In this document: positions 50,464 through 57,973 of the stretch, in pieces
Layout: each line of letters begins with the position of its first letter
Position numbering within the stretch: position 1 is the stretch's first letter
From: Chitinivorax sp. PXF-14
GTDB lineage: Bacteria > Pseudomonadota > Gammaproteobacteria > Burkholderiales > SCOH01
Length of the DNA stretch: 64,000 bases
Assembly (NCBI RefSeq): GCF_040812015.1
Contig: NZ_JBFNXJ010000018.1
Coordinates: forward strand, 1-64,000
Direction of reading: 5' to 3'
The notes under the pieces: generated by a model
Databases searched by the model: none
Told to the model about the DNA's origin: nothing
What the model saw: the letters and a program-made list of their open reading frames with translations, nothing else
Position numbers and translations under genes: made by a program

Positions 50464-51495
50464 TTACGGTATGGCTTGCACCTCAGGCTTGTCCCCAACC
50501 CATGACAAGCGCTTGTTTATACCGGGGGTGGCATATACCTTGCCAGCCATGTCGATCATCAGCACATCGGCCACGTCGAAGCGCTTGGCATACTCCGCCG
50601 CCGTCTGCACACCGCCAAACAGCAGCGGTCGCGTCACCGCCTCGGCCAGCAGCCCGGCCTGTGACGCCCTCGGCACCACCACGGTCACCGCCTGCATGCC
50701 GCTCACCGGCCAACCGCTGCGCGGGTCGATCAGATCGCTATAGCGTTTTCCGTCGAGCTCGAAGTGGCGCTGGTAGTCGCCAACGGTGACGGCCGTCTCG
50801 CCATCCTTCAATTCCAGTGTAGCCATCGCGCCAGCCTTGCGCGGGTGCGGCAGGCTGACAGTCCAGTCGCTACGCCCGTTGCGCCCCAGCGCCAGGCTGT
50901 CGCCGCCGATGCTGATCAGCGCGTTGCCGATGTCCTGGCCATGCAGGGTCTGCGCCTCGCGCTCGAGCAGCCAGCCGCGTGCCACGCGGTTGAGGTCGAG
51001 CTTCAAGAAAGCATTGTTGCCGAACACCACCTTGTCGCCAATCGACAGCGCCTGCAGCGACGGTGCAGCGGTCAGCAGCCGCTTGATCTCGGCCTCCTCA
51101 GGGCGAGCCGCTGTCACCGGGTGTGCATGAAAGCCCCAGAGCTCGGTCAGCCGCCCCTGCGCCAGGTTGAACATGCCATCGGACCACGACTCGTATTTGC
51201 GGGCCTCCTTGAGCATCGCCAGCAGGGCCGGGTCGGCCGAGTGCGGTGTCGAGCCCTGCGCCAGGGCGGCATTGAGATCGGCCAGCTCGGATGGCTGCCA
51301 TGGGTCCCAGCGCTTGCTCAGCCCTTCCAGCTCGGTCAGCACGGCCATCGCAGCCTGCCTTGCGCGGGGTTCCTCCTCACCTGCAATGGCAACACTGACC
51401 GTCGTGCCGAAGGCCTGCCCCTGCTGCACCAGCGGCGGCTTCGTACAGGCCGATAAGACCAGCAGCAGCGCAGCCCCCACCCAGTCGCGAGTCAT
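50464..51495 (-). CDS. apbE: FAD:protein FMN transferase, lipoprotein
   Basis: The 343-residue ApbE family protein attaches FMN from FAD to a Thr of target respiratory proteins such as NqrB/NqrC or RnfG. It has a lipoprotein signal ending LLLVLSAC (Cys17), so it is anchored on the periplasmic side. Family segments include [40 protein letters not shown] and [20 protein letters not shown]. It overlaps gshB by four bases (ATGA). No target flavoprotein gene lies nearby. Confidence 0.93.
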
Positions 51496-52433
51496 GGCAT
51501 AGCCCGTTCGAGCGCATCGACGAACATGGCCGCGACGTTGAACCCCGTTTGGTCCATGATCTCGCGGAAACAGGTCGGACTGGTCACGTTGACCTCGGTC
51601 AGGTAATCGCCGATCACGTCGAGCCCCACCAGCAGCAGCCCTTCAGCCTTGAGCTGCGGCCCCAGCGCGCGCGCGATGGTCCAGTCACGCTCGGACAAGG
51701 GCTGTGCGACGCCCCGCCCACCGGCGGCCAGGTTGCCGCGTGTCTCGCCCTGTTTCGGGATGCGTGCGAGGCAATAAGGCGCCGCCTCGCCGTCGATGAT
51801 CAGGATGCGCTTGTCGCCATTGACGATATCGGGGATGTAGCGCTGCACCATCACCGTCTGCGCACCTTGCTGCATCTGTGTTTCAAGAATGCTGCCAAGG
51901 TTCGGGTCGTCGAGCTTCAGGCGGAAAATGCCCATGCCGCCCATGCCGTCGAGCGGCTTGAGGATCACGTCGCCATGCTCCGCCAGGAACTCGCGCACCT
52001 GCTCCGGCTCGCGCGTCACCAGCGTCGGCGTGATGTACTCTGCAAACCGCAGGATGGCCAGTTTCTCGTTGAAATCGCGCAAGGCCTGCGGGTGATTGAC
52101 GACGCGCGCGCCCTGGCGCTGTGCGGCATCGAGCAGATGCGTGGAATACAGGTACTCCATATCGAACGGCGGGTCCTTGCGCATCAGTACCGCATCGAAA
52201 TCCGCCAGCGCCCGGACCTCGGTCGCGTCGAGACGATACCAATGCGTGTGGTCGCCAGTCAGATGCAGACGCCGTATGGTCGCCAGCACGCCGCCATCGC
52301 GCACGAACAGCTCGTGCTGCTCGAACACATACAGCGCATGCCCACGCCTGGCCGCCTCCTCCATCATGGCAAAGGTGGAGTCCTTATAGATCTTCAGATG
52401 ATCGAGCGGGTCGAGCAGGATGGCGATGTTCAT
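51492..52433 (-). CDS. gshB: Glutathione synthetase
   Basis: The 313-residue ATP-grasp ligase joins glycine to gamma-glutamylcysteine. It starts [20 protein letters not shown], with [34 protein letters not shown] (glycine-rich loop), [19 protein letters not shown] and [13 protein letters not shown] at the end. The start at 52433 matches the family. It is the first gene of the block running to 37180. Its pathway partner gshA lies 4 kb upstream, across two unrelated genes. Confidence 0.95.
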
Positions 52434-52517: not shown

Positions 52518-53675
52518 CTACAGCCCCTTGCCTGCCGTATGCACGGCAAGCCCGAGGGCCGACGCGCGAGCCAGATTCAGGTCGCTGGCATAGAGCGACA
52601 AGCCCAGGCCGAGCCAGCTCATCTGCATCTGCCAGGCCTTGAAGCGCGTGTCATACGACAACCCCACGGTGGTTCGCTCGTTGACCACGTATGCGCCACC
52701 AATCTGAGGAATCCACAGGCCGTCGATATAGCTGAGCTCGGCCAGCGCCCGGTATGCGCCAAACGGTGCAGAGGCGTTGACCAGCCATTTCTCCTTGAGC
52801 CGCTGGGTGACCGCCACACGGCTATCCTGCTCGACCAGCGAGGCTGCACCATTTTCGGCACCGACCAGCTTGCCATTGTTATCGTAGGTCACAGCACCAG
52901 CCGTCACCGTCTGCGGAATATCTCGCCAGCGGATACGCGCACCGAGATCCGACACCACGGCGTTGATCTTCACGCCCTGCGGCAGCTCCCAACTGATGCC
53001 GACATCGGTAGAAAACCCGTCGCCACTGGGGTTACCCTCCCTCACGTAGGGGTTGAACTGATTCGGGTCGCCAGTATTCAGGCCGGAATCCAGCCGCTCC
53101 CGAATACCGTAGAAACTGAGTTTGTCAGCCGTTGCCACGTCGGCATGTCCGGCTCCGTGCTCCAGGCGTACCCGGGTTCCGCGCAGATAACTCAGGGCCA
53201 CGCCGGAGCGAAACTTGCCGAGCCCACCGGCATCGAATGCCATGGCACGCCCCAGACGGACGCCGTTTGCCGCGAAATACTCCATGCGATAGTCGACATC
53301 GTAAGTGCTGCCGGGAGTCAACACATCGCCGCGATCGAGCAAGGGTGCCAGCCGAATCACGTCGTCGTTGCCTTGTGCCAGCGCATCGCGCCGATGAAAG
53401 ACACCAAGGCGCCAGCCTTTTGCGTCACCCGCCAGCTCGAGCTTGGTCTGAAACAACGCGAAATTGTTTCCCTGGCAGCAGCGCACATGGTCGGACCAGC
53501 TCTTGCTGGCTTTCATGACATCGATCGGGTCGTTGGCACCGTAAAGCTCGAAATCGAGACGGCTCGTAGCAACCGTCGCAATCTCGGCAGGGTTGGAAAT
53601 GGCCAGTGGGCTGGCCATGGCGGCCGACTGGATGGCAAACATCACGGCGAGCACGAGGGAATGGCGGCGGGGCAT
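52518..53675 (-). CDS. Probable outer-membrane beta-barrel protein of unknown family
   Basis: The 385-residue product has a signal peptide to SAAMA|SP and many alternating beta strands. Phrases such as GDGFSTDVGISWELPQGVKI, YVVNERTTVGLSYDTRFKAW and LGLGLSLYASDLNLARA are typical of barrels. The closest-looking type is the MtrB/porin-like proteins of paired lipoprotein loci, but I do not claim a family. The start at 53675 follows GGAG. It lies directly after the terminator of the lipoprotein gene, so it may depend on read-through. With its partner it probably forms an envelope unit. Confidence 0.75.
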   Translation of the reverse strand: MPRRHSLVLAVMFAIQSAAMASPLAISNPAEIATVATSRLDFELYGANDPIDVMKASKSWSDHVRCCQGNNFALFQTKLELAGDAKGWRLGVFHRRDALAQGNDDVIRLAPLLDRGDVLTPGSTYDVDYRMEYFAANGVRLGRAMAFDAGGLGKFRSGVALSYLRGTRVRLEHGAGHADVATADKLSFYGIRERLDSGLNTGDPNQFNPYVREGNPSGDGFSTDVGISWELPQGVKINAVVSDLGARIRWRDIPQTVTAGAVTYDNNGKLVGAENGAASLVEQDSRVAVTQRLKEKWLVNASAPFGAYRALAELSYIDGLWIPQIGGAYVVNERTTVGLSYDTRFKAWQMQMSWLGLGLSLYASDLNLARASALGLAVHTAGKGL

Positions 53676-53685
53676 CGCATACTCC

Positions 53686-53716
53686 AAAAAAAGAAGCCGG
53701 CAAAGCCGGCTTCTTT
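53686..53716 (-). terminator. Rho-independent terminator after the lipoprotein gene
   Basis: On the minus strand AAAGAAGCCGGC pairs with GCCGGCTTCTTT around a 3-base loop (12-bp stem), followed by a run of seven T. The T-run passes straight into the GGAG ribosome-binding site of the next gene, so it may work as an attenuator between the two. Confidence 0.8.
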
Positions 53717-53737
53717 AACATCAAACAGCCTGTGGCA

Positions 53738-55864
53738 TCAACCCAGCGATTCGCTGCTGCCGTCGACGAAGTTCGCTCGACCGCCGATGATGGTACCAAC
53801 CGCGTTGTCACCAACCTTGACCGTGCCCTTGTACTGGCCAGTGGTCTTGTCGAACTCGACCGTCACCACGACACCGTCGGTATTCGACAGGTTTGCCACG
53901 CCGGCAAGCTCACCGGAGGTCGTCGCGGCATCGACCGTGATCGTGCGGCCATGGAAGGTATGCTTCAACGAGTAAGCCACGTTGGTCGGTGTAGCCGCAT
54001 CACGCTTCGCGCCGAGGATTACGGTGACATCGTTTTCTGCAAGCGCCCCATGTACGACTGCCTTCAGCGAAGCCGCGCCGAACGGGCCGTTGGCGTCTTC
54101 GCCGGCCATCGTCACGTTGGCGGTCACGTCCGCGACTGGACCCACAGCATTGGAGACCGAGCCGGTGAACTTGCCGGTGACAGGCATAACCGACAGATCA
54201 CCCACGTCGAGCGTGCCGGACACGGTGTAGGCGTTGCCACCAACCGCTGCCACCAGGTTCAGCGAGCCATACGGCGTGCCGTCATTGGCTGGGAAGTAGA
54301 CGACGCTGCCGTCACCAATCTGGAGCGAGCTCGCCACACCATTCAGCGTGGTTGTCGCGGTGCCTTTCAGTGTCAACGTTTCCCTGTTGGCATCGCTGCT
54401 CAGCGTGCCGGAGACATCGAGGCTGGTCTTGTTGTCGGTCGAACCGAAGCCGAACGGCATGTCGCCCTTGGCTACCACGCCGACAGCCCTGCCACTACCG
54501 TCATAGGTCACGGTCGCGGTGCCATCGATATCGGCCAGAAAGGTAACCTTGGTTGCAGTCGTCGCACTCGGGCTGGCAAACGTCTTCTTGAATGCATCCC
54601 ACTGATAGGCGCCGCTACCGGTTGCATGCAAGGTAAACGCAAAGGCGGAGTTGACGGTTGCGCCATCGACCTGGCGATCATTACGTCCGTAGGTACACGT
54701 TACATTACCCGCAGGGGTAGTTGCATCGGCAGTGCATTTACCCCCCACGCCACCCGCCGAGGTCTGCAACACATACTGGCCATTTACTGCAGCCGGCGCT
54801 CGGCCAGCCGCGATATCGGAGGCGAACTCGATGCCCTTGGCCAGCCACTGATAGTGTTCGGCAGCGAGCGAGCCGTTATTCGATGCGACAGTAACTGCCT
54901 CCTGCACACCGCGCGATACCCCCAGCAGACGATCCTGGGCAATCAGCGCCGATACGCGCACATCGCTCAGCATCTGCTTGGCCTTGGCCAGATCGCTGAC
55001 CTGGGTCGGCGTAACCGGTGTCGGCTTGACGATGATGACGTAGGTGTCGGCTTTCAGGCGTTCCTTGGTGGCATCATCGGCATATTTCTCGGCAGCCGCG
55101 ATCAGGGCGGTGTTGATATTGGCGACGAACGCCCCCGAATCGAATGCGGTGACGGCACTGCCATCCGTCCCCTTGCCATCGAGCACGCCGTCGGCCAGAT
55201 CCTTGGCCAGATCTTTGGCGATCTCGAACGCCTTCTTGCCGCTGTTGCCGTTGCCAGCCAGAGCTGCGAGCACCAGCGCATATTTGTCCTTGGGGTCGTC
55301 CTTGAGGTCCTTGACCGACGCATCCACCAGGCGCGGCGGCACCAGCACGTCAGCCACGCCGAACACCTGCGCGATCAGTGCGTTTGCTTCCTTGATCTTG
55401 GTCGCCACCTGATCGGCGGTCAGCGAGCCGAGCTGGCTACGGACGCGCTTGGCCGAGGCATCGGTAAGTGGCGTGACGGCAATCGATTTGCTCGTGGCAT
55501 CAGGCACCACGGCCTCGATCGATTCACCCGCGGGGAAATCGACGTCGGTGCCAGCGGCTTCGTCGTAGTATTTGACACCAGCCCCACCCACCACCTTGAC
55601 GATAAAGGCGCCGCTATAGCTGCCCAGGTCGACAGTGGCCGTGCCGTCGGCACCAATCGTGCCAGTACCGATCACCTTGTCGCTCATGTCGTGAATTTCG
55701 ATACGGGTGTTGGCTGAGAATTTGCCAAGGGACGGTGCGACCGTGACCTGATTGGTTTGTGCGGCCGGCGAATCACTACCGCCGCCACCGCCGCCACAGG
55801 CGGCAAGAGCAAGCAGGACCAGCGGGGCAAGTGCGCGCAGGCGGAAACTGGGAGAAGCAAACAT
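53738..55864 (-). CDS. Large surface or periplasmic lipoprotein of unknown function
   Basis: The 708-residue product has a lipoprotein signal ending LALAACGGGGGGS (Cys23 followed by six Gly), a common tether. The mature part mixes a helical domain (residues ~100-300, Ala/Lys-rich) with beta-rich sequence to the end, including ITVDAATTSGELAGV and VTVEFDKTTGQYKG. I recognise no family. GGAGG precedes the ATG. A 5' leader of about 140 bp is AT-rich and contains a GCCCGG/CCGGGC hairpin at 55898-55913. It is paired with the downstream barrel-like gene. Confidence 0.7.
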   Translation of the reverse strand: MFASPSFRLRALAPLVLLALAACGGGGGGSDSPAAQTNQVTVAPSLGKFSANTRIEIHDMSDKVIGTGTIGADGTATVDLGSYSGAFIVKVVGGAGVKYYDEAAGTDVDFPAGESIEAVVPDATSKSIAVTPLTDASAKRVRSQLGSLTADQVATKIKEANALIAQVFGVADVLVPPRLVDASVKDLKDDPKDKYALVLAALAGNGNSGKKAFEIAKDLAKDLADGVLDGKGTDGSAVTAFDSGAFVANINTALIAAAEKYADDATKERLKADTYVIIVKPTPVTPTQVSDLAKAKQMLSDVRVSALIAQDRLLGVSRGVQEAVTVASNNGSLAAEHYQWLAKGIEFASDIAAGRAPAAVNGQYVLQTSAGGVGGKCTADATTPAGNVTCTYGRNDRQVDGATVNSAFAFTLHATGSGAYQWDAFKKTFASPSATTATKVTFLADIDGTATVTYDGSGRAVGVVAKGDMPFGFGSTDNKTSLDVSGTLSSDANRETLTLKGTATTTLNGVASSLQIGDGSVVYFPANDGTPYGSLNLVAAVGGNAYTVSGTLDVGDLSVMPVTGKFTGSVSNAVGPVADVTANVTMAGEDANGPFGAASLKAVVHGALAENDVTVILGAKRDAATPTNVAYSLKHTFHGRTITVDAATTSGELAGVANLSNTDGVVVTVEFDKTTGQYKGTVKVGDNAVGTIIGGRANFVDGSSESLG

Positions 55865-55897
55865 TGAACCTCCGAACCTTGTTGTTGTGTGAGGGGT

Positions 55898-55913
55898 GCC
55901 CGGGAATCCGGGC
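55898..55913 (-). other. Hairpin in the leader of the lipoprotein gene
   Basis: GCCCGG and CCGGGC form a 6-bp stem with a GAAT loop, 34 bp before the start codon. It lies between the AT-rich upstream sequence (55935-56010, with three TTACA-type repeats) and the gene. A regulatory role is possible but unproven. Confidence 0.35.
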
Positions 55914-56157
55914 CGGATACGGCGAGCGTTACATCAGAATCAAGTATATAAGGTTTACATTATTTACAAATCTATATTTTCCTTACATCCGTTCGTGGAT
56001 CATTTAAAAAAAGTAACGGCAGAGGGAGAAAAGTGGCGCCTTGCTTGCCAGGGCGACAAGGGTTGACGGGCGCACAACGAGGCAGGCAGCCCCGTTCAGG
56101 CGAACTGGCGCGGCAACGGGCACCCAGGGCGGGCGGCCAATCGTCTCGATTGCAGCG

Positions 56158-56622
56158 CTATGGCTGGGTTGCCGGCAAAGATCGTTTGAGGACTTCGTAA
56201 CAATCATCGACATGGGCGTTGCCGATCATGCGCATGGCACCGAAGCTGATCGATGCCGCAACGGCCTGGCCGAGCAGCGGTACGAACTTCAGCGCTGACT
56301 TGCCGGCCAGGCGCACGCCCATGCGGCTCAGGGCGCGCATGATCAGCTGCCGCGTGACGACCTTGCCGATCATCTCGCTGCCGATGCTGGTGATGGCCAC
56401 CAGCATGATCTTCTTGAGTTGTGGATCGAGCGTGTCGATCTGCTCGGGGGTCAGGCCGAATTTGCGGTTGATGGCCGGGATCATTTCCAGCAGCAACGCG
56501 GCATCAGCGCCGATGTCGATGCCCAGCAAGGGGACGACCGCGGCGCCAGCCGACAGGCCGGCGCGCCGCGTGACCATAGCGCGGCACTCGGCACGCAGCG
56601 CTTCGAGCTGTTCGAGCGTCAT
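56158..56622 (-). CDS. DUF697-like small membrane-associated protein
   Basis: The 154-residue product has an amphipathic helical pattern with two hydrophobic segments. It includes AAVVPLLGIDIGADAALLLE and MIPAINRKFGLTPEQIDTL, then LKFVPLLGQAVAASISFGA near the C-terminus. These features suggest the DUF697 group of GTPase-associated or stand-alone proteins of unknown role. The start at 56622 follows AGGGT. It is co-transcribed with gshA (46-bp gap) but has no evident link to glutathione. Confidence 0.75.
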   Translation of the reverse strand: MTLEQLEALRAECRAMVTRRAGLSAGAAVVPLLGIDIGADAALLLEMIPAINRKFGLTPEQIDTLDPQLKKIMLVAITSIGSEMIGKVVTRQLIMRALSRMGVRLAGKSALKFVPLLGQAVAASISFGAMRMIGNAHVDDCYEVLKRSLPATQP

Positions 56623-56668: not shown

Positions 56669-57973
56669 TCACACGGCCACCCGGTAGGCTTCTTCTTCGG
56701 CCGGAGCCGTCTGTTCGAGCTCGAGGCTCGCGGCGAGCAGCGCCAGACGGGCGACCACGCCATAGCTGTAGAAGCGGTTGGGCAGACAGTCCGGGTCGGC
56801 GCCACAGTCGGGCAGGCTGCAGGGGGCCTCGAACGACAGCGGTTCAAAATGCATGCCGGGCGCGTTGAGGTTCTCGTCGACGCCGCGGCCGGTGTGCACG
56901 CGGTAGAAGCCGCCAACGACAAAGCGGTCGACCATGTAGACCACCGGCTCGGCCACCGCGTCGTTGATGCTCTCGAAGGTGTGCACGCCTTCCTGCACGA
57001 TGACCTCGTGCACCTCCTGGCCCTCCTTGATCACGCTCATCTTGTTGCGCTGCTTGCGGTTGAGGCCGATCACCTCGTCCGGGCTCTTCACGCTCATCAC
57101 GCCCATGCCATAGGTGCCGGCGTTGGCCTTGACGATGACGTAGGGCTGTTCGGTGATGCCGTATTCCTTGTACTTCTCGGCGATGCGGTCGAGCAGCAGT
57201 TCCACCTTGGCGGCGAGGCATTCCTCGCCCTTGCGCTCATGGAAGTCGATGCCTTCGCAGCGGTCAAAGTAGGGGTTGATCAGCCATGGGTCGATGCCGA
57301 TCAGCTTGGCGAAGTCGTCGGCCACTTCGTCGTAGGCGGCGAAATGGTGGGTCTTCTTGCGCGTGGACCAGCCCGCATGCAGCGGCGGCAGCAGGTTCTG
57401 TTCGATGCCTTCGAGCAGCGGCGGGATGCCGGCCGACAGGTCATTGTTGAGCAGCACCACACAGGGATTGAAATCGGGCAGCGTGACGCGGTTGCCGCTG
57501 CGCTTCACCGGCTCCAGCAGCAGCGTGTCGCCATTGGCCGTGGTGACCTCGGTCGGCGCGGTGATCTCGGGCGAGATGCTGCCCAGGCGCACGTTGAGGC
57601 CGGCCTGCTTGAGGATGTACTGGATGGTCGCGACGTTTTGCAGGTAGAAGGTGTTGCGCGTGTGATTCTCGGGGATCAGCAACAGGCTGCGCGCATCGGG
57701 GCAGACCTTTTCCAGCGCCGACTGCACCGCCTGCACGCACAGCGGCATGAAATCGCGGTTGAGGTTGTTGAAGCCCCCCGGAAACAGATTCATATCCACC
57801 GGCGCCAGCTTGAAGCCGGCATTGCGCAGGTCCACCGAGCCATAGAACGGCGGCGAATGCTCCAGCCACTGGGTGCGGAACCAATGCTCGATCTGCGGCA
57901 TGGCACTGAGAATGCGGCGCTCGAGTTCGAGTATCGGGCCTTTTTGGGCGGTGGTCAGGTAGGGGACGTTCAT
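56669..57973 (-). CDS. gshA: Glutamate-cysteine ligase, proteobacterial GshA type
   Basis: The 434-residue enzyme makes gamma-glutamylcysteine with ATP. It matches the beta/alphaproteobacterial GshA family, distinct from the E. coli type. Segments are LERRILSAMPQIEHWFRTQW, FYGSVDLRNAGFKLAPVDMN, NLFPGGFNNL, LIPENHTRNTFYLQNVATIQ, VIVKANAGTYGMGVMSVKSP and GVHTFESINDAVAEPVVYMV. In many relatives gshB is adjacent; here it lies 4 kb downstream. Length and ends look complete. Confidence 0.95.
   Translation of the reverse strand: MNVPYLTTAQKGPILELERRILSAMPQIEHWFRTQWLEHSPPFYGSVDLRNAGFKLAPVDMNLFPGGFNNLNRDFMPLCVQAVQSALEKVCPDARSLLLIPENHTRNTFYLQNVATIQYILKQAGLNVRLGSISPEITAPTEVTTANGDTLLLEPVKRSGNRVTLPDFNPCVVLLNNDLSAGIPPLLEGIEQNLLPPLHAGWSTRKKTHHFAAYDEVADDFAKLIGIDPWLINPYFDRCEGIDFHERKGEECLAAKVELLLDRIAEKYKEYGITEQPYVIVKANAGTYGMGVMSVKSPDEVIGLNRKQRNKMSVIKEGQEVHEVIVQEGVHTFESINDAVAEPVVYMVDRFVVGGFYRVHTGRGVDENLNAPGMHFEPLSFEAPCSLPDCGADPDCLPNRFYSYGVVARLALLAASLELEQTAPAEEEAYRVAV

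Follow-up and report, generated by a model that had tools for sequence, protein, structure and literature searches.

A conserved lipoprotein and barrel gene pair that may form an outer-membrane module in Pseudomonadota

We analysed a 64,000-nt stretch of Chitinivorax sp. PXF-14 (assembly GCF_040812015.1, contig NZ_JBFNXJ010000018.1; hereafter, the window), in which a lipoprotein gene is followed by a gene for a predicted FadL-type barrel (positions 52,518–55,864). Comparison across genomes shows well that the two genes make up a conserved module, which recurs in distant Pseudomonadota in changing neighbourhoods. We propose, with about even confidence, that the pair is a self-contained outer-membrane module, in which a dedicated lipoprotein would dock by its C-terminal tail on a FadL-superfamily barrel and be held at, or carried to, the cell surface. 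The features of the pair are as follows.

53738–55864, minus strand: coding sequence of the 708-residue lipoprotein, an open frame with translation
55796–55807, minus strand: lipobox LAAC (residues 20–23) with Gly at +2; Cys23 is conserved in the alignments
53741–53770, minus strand: tail FVDGSSESLG (residues 699–708), a [Y/F]xDG[ST]xE[ST][LI] tag, from alignments and pattern scan
53686–53716, minus strand: terminator-like hairpin with a T-run abutting the barrel ribosome-binding site, from folding and shuffles
52518–53675, minus strand: coding sequence of the 385-residue FadL-like outer-membrane barrel, with an ATG start and a Pfam DUF5723 match at the cut-off
53586–53594, minus strand: NPA motif (residues 28–30) before the first strand, in 6/6 barrels of the window's subgroup

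Both genes had been noticed in an earlier reading of the letters alone (hereafter, the sequence-only reading), as a Gly-tethered lipoprotein of 708 residues and a barrel-like protein of 385. Both frames were confirmed, the first with its lipobox LAAC and a Gly run after Cys23, the second with a FadL-like barrel model.

Reciprocal linkage of the two genes

The pair is not common among relatives. Across the genomes of 60 relatives, the window's own included, the barrel was found in two and the full-length lipoprotein in two (the window's and G025), a third lipoprotein match in G042 covering only ~71 residues, and neither protein is carried by any of the four other members of the window's family. 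Nor does either protein match a family with established function. The two findings that would have refuted the sequence-only reading were thus not made. A first scan of genome contigs using the window barrel alone found no relative, searches of solved structures by sequence gave only chance matches, and PHROGs gave nothing useful.

A barrel profile matched 6 of 399 genomes of the order and 16 of 369 of the class (own included), and these searches together gave 22 distinct barrel loci, two of them from G636. Directly upstream of the barrel, on the same strand, lies a large protein that usually has a lipobox and ends in the tail in 19 of these 22 barrel-selected loci, with 15 strict tail matches and four variants. 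In the reverse direction, one tail-derived pattern was scanned against ~85,000 species genomes and returned 82 stretches, 42 of which hold a relative of the lipoprotein. A profile built from the 22 barrels found a barrel in 39 of these 42 loci. Seven of the 42 records belong to the loci behind the profile and thus match by construction; when they are excluded, the barrel is present in 32 of 35. The barrel lies directly downstream within ~165 nt in 32 of the 39 loci, at 467 nt in one, behind a second tailed protein in four, and divergently in two. The three remaining genomes have the barrel elsewhere, and in one of them, a Spongiibacter, the distant barrel again follows a tailed protein. We take these reciprocal counts (19/22 and 39/42) as support for the view of the sequence-only reading that the two genes belong together.

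There are 57 distinct loci in all, and the record titles name Photobacterium, Vibrio, Zhongshania, Leucothrix, Marinibactrum, Undibacterium, and a Desulfobacteraceae assembly. In three distinct loci (L097, L109 = L074, and L110) two lipoproteins with the same tail, in tandem or flanking, accompany one barrel, and in L112 the tail is missing from the end of the upstream frame. Apart from the pair itself, no family of neighbours is widely shared among the loci, the next largest group being ABC-type (n = 9). In L105 and L084 the barrel gene and that of the tailed lipoprotein lie side by side in divergent orientation. A link with type II secretion was considered, as genes that look gsp-like by eye in translation adjoin the pair in L036 and L037, and was rejected when these did not recur elsewhere.

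Conservation of the C-terminal tail

To measure tail conservation we used alignment A6, which comprises 16 of the 19 upstream proteins and was chosen via the barrel rather than the tail; L036 (an N in the frame, apparently broken), L072, and L075 were omitted as broken or partial. Among 701 windows of 8 residues, those at the extreme C-terminus rank 1, 2, 3, and 5 in conservation, with examples such as YSDGTFETL and FVDGSSESLG. A second alignment, A9, was not used as evidence on this point because its loci were picked by the tail; it omits 10 of the 42 loci (L091, L092, L094, L101, L103, L105, L106, L112, L115, and L119), whose frames are partial, very long, redundant, or irregular.

Eight lipoproteins with no barrel nearby resemble the others in the N-terminal domain alone, and none of them carries the tail. 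In the window genome the tail pattern occurs once; one further match ends in TGG and is therefore not a C-terminus. In these comparisons the occurrence of the tail goes with the presence of the barrel, and the tail may be an address label that the barrel reads.

The barrel models as a FadL-type protein

The only Pfam family matched by the barrels is DUF5723, in 8 of 22 (E up to 0.01), and the window barrel scores 26.9 bits against a cut-off of 26.8. The description of this protein as belonging to no recognised family is thus right in that no described functional family was found for it, and too strong in that it reaches DUF5723 just at the cut-off. The Toluene_X signature was not matched in the 22 barrels (E up to 0.01).

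A structure model built from 39 sequences had a predicted local distance difference test score (pLDDT) of 83.7 and a predicted template-modelling score (pTM) of 0.81. Its top match was TodX (Foldseek E 1.9e-6; Z 18.1 over 301 residues), and TodX, CymD, FadL, and TbuX all aligned at Z 16.4–18.1. Chains from the BAM (beta-barrel assembly machinery) complex that were taken as BamG aligned at Z 14.9–16.3, OmpG at Z 14.9, and the type IX chains 8gl6_F and 6h3i_F, which we take to be PorV, at Z 15.7–16.2. By fold, the barrel thus models as a member of the FadL superfamily.

These top matches to hydrocarbon and fatty-acid channels suggest another role for the pair. It could be a stable uptake complex, with the barrel conducting a small substrate, hydrophobic or other, and the lipoprotein serving as a capture or lid subunit, following the logic of SusCD. 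The mostly 1:1 pairing agrees with this, as does the NPA motif, kept in 6/6 barrels of the window's subgroup and named in FadL mutants. However, in the wider barrel set A8, 38 of 39 rows lack NPA, and no catabolic neighbour recurs. FadL has an N-terminal hatch threaded into its barrel. In the window barrel the first strand begins at residue 37, and in 34 of 39 rows only 17–50 residues, signal peptide counted, come ahead of strand 1; this stretch is too short for a hatch of the FadL type, which is therefore missing. Taken together, an uptake complex is possible, though we consider it rather doubtful.

The predicted outer loops are more conserved than the periplasmic turns, at 1.75 vs 1.38 bits in alignment A5 and 1.71 vs 1.14 in A8 (which omits L106, near L104, from the 39 barrels), where the side that faces out was assigned from general knowledge of such barrels. 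This bears on a topology like that of LptE or RcsF, in which a periplasm-facing lipoprotein would plug or gate the barrel from inside with its tail in the lumen. Such an arrangement would suit the lumen without a hatch and the periplasmic orientation that is the default for Lol-sorted lipoproteins, but the better-conserved part of the barrel is on the other side, and we regard it as improbable.

The lipoprotein

The lipobox pattern is found in 14 of the 16 rows of A6. An outer-membrane lipoprotein is expected to have no Asp at +2, and none of these 14 has one; the window lipoprotein reads LAAC-GG, likewise with no Asp after the lipobox Cys. Together with the FadL-like model and the conserved tail, this makes the outer-membrane complex proposed in the sequence-only reading plausible.

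The protein has an N-terminal beta-sandwich with helices (modelled at ~38–272), a long helix (291–352), a beta-rich C-terminal half, and the conserved tail. Its N-terminal part resembles a non-heme domain, that of the extracellular Geobacter cytochrome PgcA (Z 10.6, 162 residues, root-mean-square deviation (rmsd) 3.8, 16% identity). Foldseek returned nothing at E <0.001 for the lipoprotein model; the best matches, OspA (2.8e-3) and TbpB (8.9e-3), are surface lipoproteins and are not significant. For the C-terminal half, the alignments returned by VIA-align were barrel-like but loose (rmsd mostly >14). No curated family fits the protein in Pfam, NCBIfam, or PHROGs, a match of the window lipoprotein to TIGR04183 at E 0.23 being noise.

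All five lipoproteins of the window's subgroup (A4) have Cys 377 and Cys 390, which were not seen in the other A6 rows; the two possibly form a disulfide. The window genome has three more frames that resemble the N-terminal domain (L139, L142, and L143; G000:C13:34175, C13:138692, and C12:96369), and the tail pattern search of this genome places no tail on any of them.

A hairpin between the two genes

The sequence-only reading had placed a terminator at 53686–53716 whose T-run runs into the ribosome-binding site of the second gene, and the hairpin was located exactly there. It has a 12-bp stem (53690–53716) and a T-run (53686–53692) directly adjoining the barrel gene's GGAG (53682–53685), with a minimum free energy of -23.7 kcal/mol (z -2.34 vs shuffles). 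A generic terminator scan missed it.

Terminator-like hairpins with a T-run are present in 17 of 22 gaps of 51–162 nt within the pair in distant species, mostly ending within ~30 nt of the barrel start. By comparison, they were found in 1.5% of mononucleotide-shuffled gaps and in 7 of 56 control gaps of 50–165 nt between other same-strand frames of the loci (frames called mechanically). The enrichment is significant (Fisher p 8e-8, or 1e-6 after removing 3 near-duplicates). Five gaps of at least 50 nt were overlooked at first; four of them have a hairpin, which brings the totals to 21/27 overall and 19/25 in the size range of the control. The L006 hairpin, visible by eye but missed by the rule, was scored as a miss. 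The letters of the hairpin vary between species and its place is kept, which is most naturally read as selection for a weaker downstream gene. This recurrence in distant species strengthens the attenuated coupling that had been suggested from the window alone, as far as sequences can speak to it.

Genomic setting

In the window the pair is flanked by the following genes.

56669–57973, minus strand: gshA, with Pfam and NCBIfam matches far above cut-off
56158–56622, minus strand: third frame of ~154 residues between gshA and the lipoprotein gene, DUF697-like, below cut-off
51492–52433, minus strand: gshB, with Pfam and NCBIfam matches far above cut-off

The two genes had been thought to split gshA and gshB by themselves; three frames lie there, including the DUF697-like one, which is not part of the module. 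The weight that the sequence-only reading gave to this position was not borne out either. gshA and gshB lie on one contig in 45 of the relatives' genomes besides the window's own, with a gap of ≤200 nt in 37 of them. Within the window's family the gap is 46 nt in G002, and other genes fill 8.8 kb in G001 and 3.5 kb in G003. The cargo at these two junctions (G001:C4, L122; G003:C2, L123) differs per species and includes binding-protein-like frames, peptidase-like frames, and others (named by eye). The junction looks like a variable site that is simply open to insertion. A functional link with the gsh genes was rejected on the synteny of relatives, and gshA and gshB are judged unrelated in function to the pair.

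Such a site, holding other genes in two family relatives, and the absence of the pair from all four of these relatives would also fit two genes that are neighbours without joint function. This is contradicted by the reciprocal linkage (39/42 and 19/22) across the 57 distinct loci and by the hairpin kept between the genes, and we consider it very improbable.

The leader upstream of the lipoprotein gene had been described as AT-rich with repeats. Its G+C is indeed lower (0.51 in 55800–55999 vs ~0.61), but the repeats are short and no better than chance. No sigma-70-like site was found in the leader, and separate control through these repeats was thus not supported.

Proposed mechanism and its significance

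The docking step is inferred by analogy. The pair shares gene order, barrel superfamily, and a conserved C-terminus with type IX barrels and their cargo, and we therefore propose tail docking and surface holding. The Lol route would bring the lipoprotein to the outer membrane, where its tail would dock either on the outer loops of the barrel, which are well conserved, or in the hatch-less lumen. The barrel would thereby carry the lipoprotein to, or hold it at, the cell surface, although surface display itself is a guess. The hairpin would lower barrel synthesis below that of the lipoprotein.

In a stronger version, which we think unlikely, the pair would be a shuttle for surface lipoproteins of Pseudomonadota that needs no type IX translocon: the tail YxDG[ST]FES[LI] would be the signal and the hatch-less barrel the receiver and passage, with a conserved attenuator that keeps the barrel scarce so that one barrel handles several lipoprotein copies.

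Several observations weigh against the proposed docking module. Lipoproteins usually face the periplasm in Pseudomonadota, and the display step would be wrong if this holds here. At pLDDT 62 the lipoprotein model is weak overall, though its N-terminal domain and final 50 residues are modelled well, and the L073 frame as called has no lipobox. The linkage has gaps as well: the barrels of L066, L069, and L070 (one genus, and the three exceptions among the 22 barrel loci) have no adjacent partner, their genomes giving only weak N-domain matches, and within the short stretch examined no tailed lipoprotein adjoins those of L133 and L134. In many pairs the genes overlap or sit a few nt apart, so no hairpin is possible between them. 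The single tail in the window genome is 1:1 with the barrel, a ratio equally compatible with a stable complex and with a shuttle.

As a separate observation, the solo barrels of L066, L069, and L070 lie downstream of a murein-ligase-like gene (named by eye).

We found no description of the pair in the open-access literature, as judged mostly from titles and abstract openings. Few systems are known by which lipoproteins of Pseudomonadota reach the cell exterior. The pair is widespread and occurs in named culturable genera (Photobacterium, Zhongshania, and Leucothrix), and the short tail, the small separable partner, and the hairpin make the pair and its protein ratio experimentally tractable.

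Comparison with known systems

In Slam systems a barrel gene also adjoins a surface-lipoprotein gene. Slam has a periplasmic TPR domain; the window barrel has no such domain ahead of it, strand 1 starting at residue 37. The TPR domain was not found mentioned in PMC9090332. FadL and TodX are the best structural matches and share NPA with the window's subgroup, but the 22 barrels have no Toluene_X match and the hatch region is missing.

BamG is a FadL-family barrel that binds the surface lipoprotein BamH in the BAM complex of Bacteroidota (PMC12611786, PMC12578637). The pair resembles it in joining a FadL-type barrel with a lipoprotein. BamG differs in its extended N-tail and its contacts with BamA; in the barrels studied here the N-terminus is short, and no neighbour recurs. 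PorV, which binds cargo C-terminal domains (PMC12618676), has the FadL fold too, but serves many cargos, whereas each barrel here has mostly one and sometimes two genome-linked lipoproteins.

Close parallels in gene order are SprB–SprF and PG1035–PorP, of the type IX system of Bacteroidota with type B C-terminal-domain (CTD) cargo. NCBIfam models of the type IX shuttle or cargo CTD gave no match in 22 barrels and 16 lipoproteins (E up to 0.1), and a search for SprA/Sov matched 0/6 genomes, with the controls giving no match either. By these tests the pair falls outside the type IX families, though it possibly works like them. In Flavobacterium johnsoniae and Porphyromonas gingivalis, genes for PorP/SprF barrels of the FadL family are commonly directly downstream of the cargo genes; the cargo that these barrels bind has a conserved C-terminal region, and the barrels are proposed to keep it anchored on the cell surface. 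The barrels tested in these species were scarce, and some orphan cargo shares a barrel (PMC9143113 and PMC12618676). Here, too, the barrel gene lies directly downstream of a C-terminally tagged large protein (19/22 and 32/42), with the differences that a lipid anchor is usual on the putative cargo and that the hosts are mostly Pseudomonadota. The pair would then act in the manner of SprF/PorP or PorV, or of BamG with BamH, without the rest of those machines.

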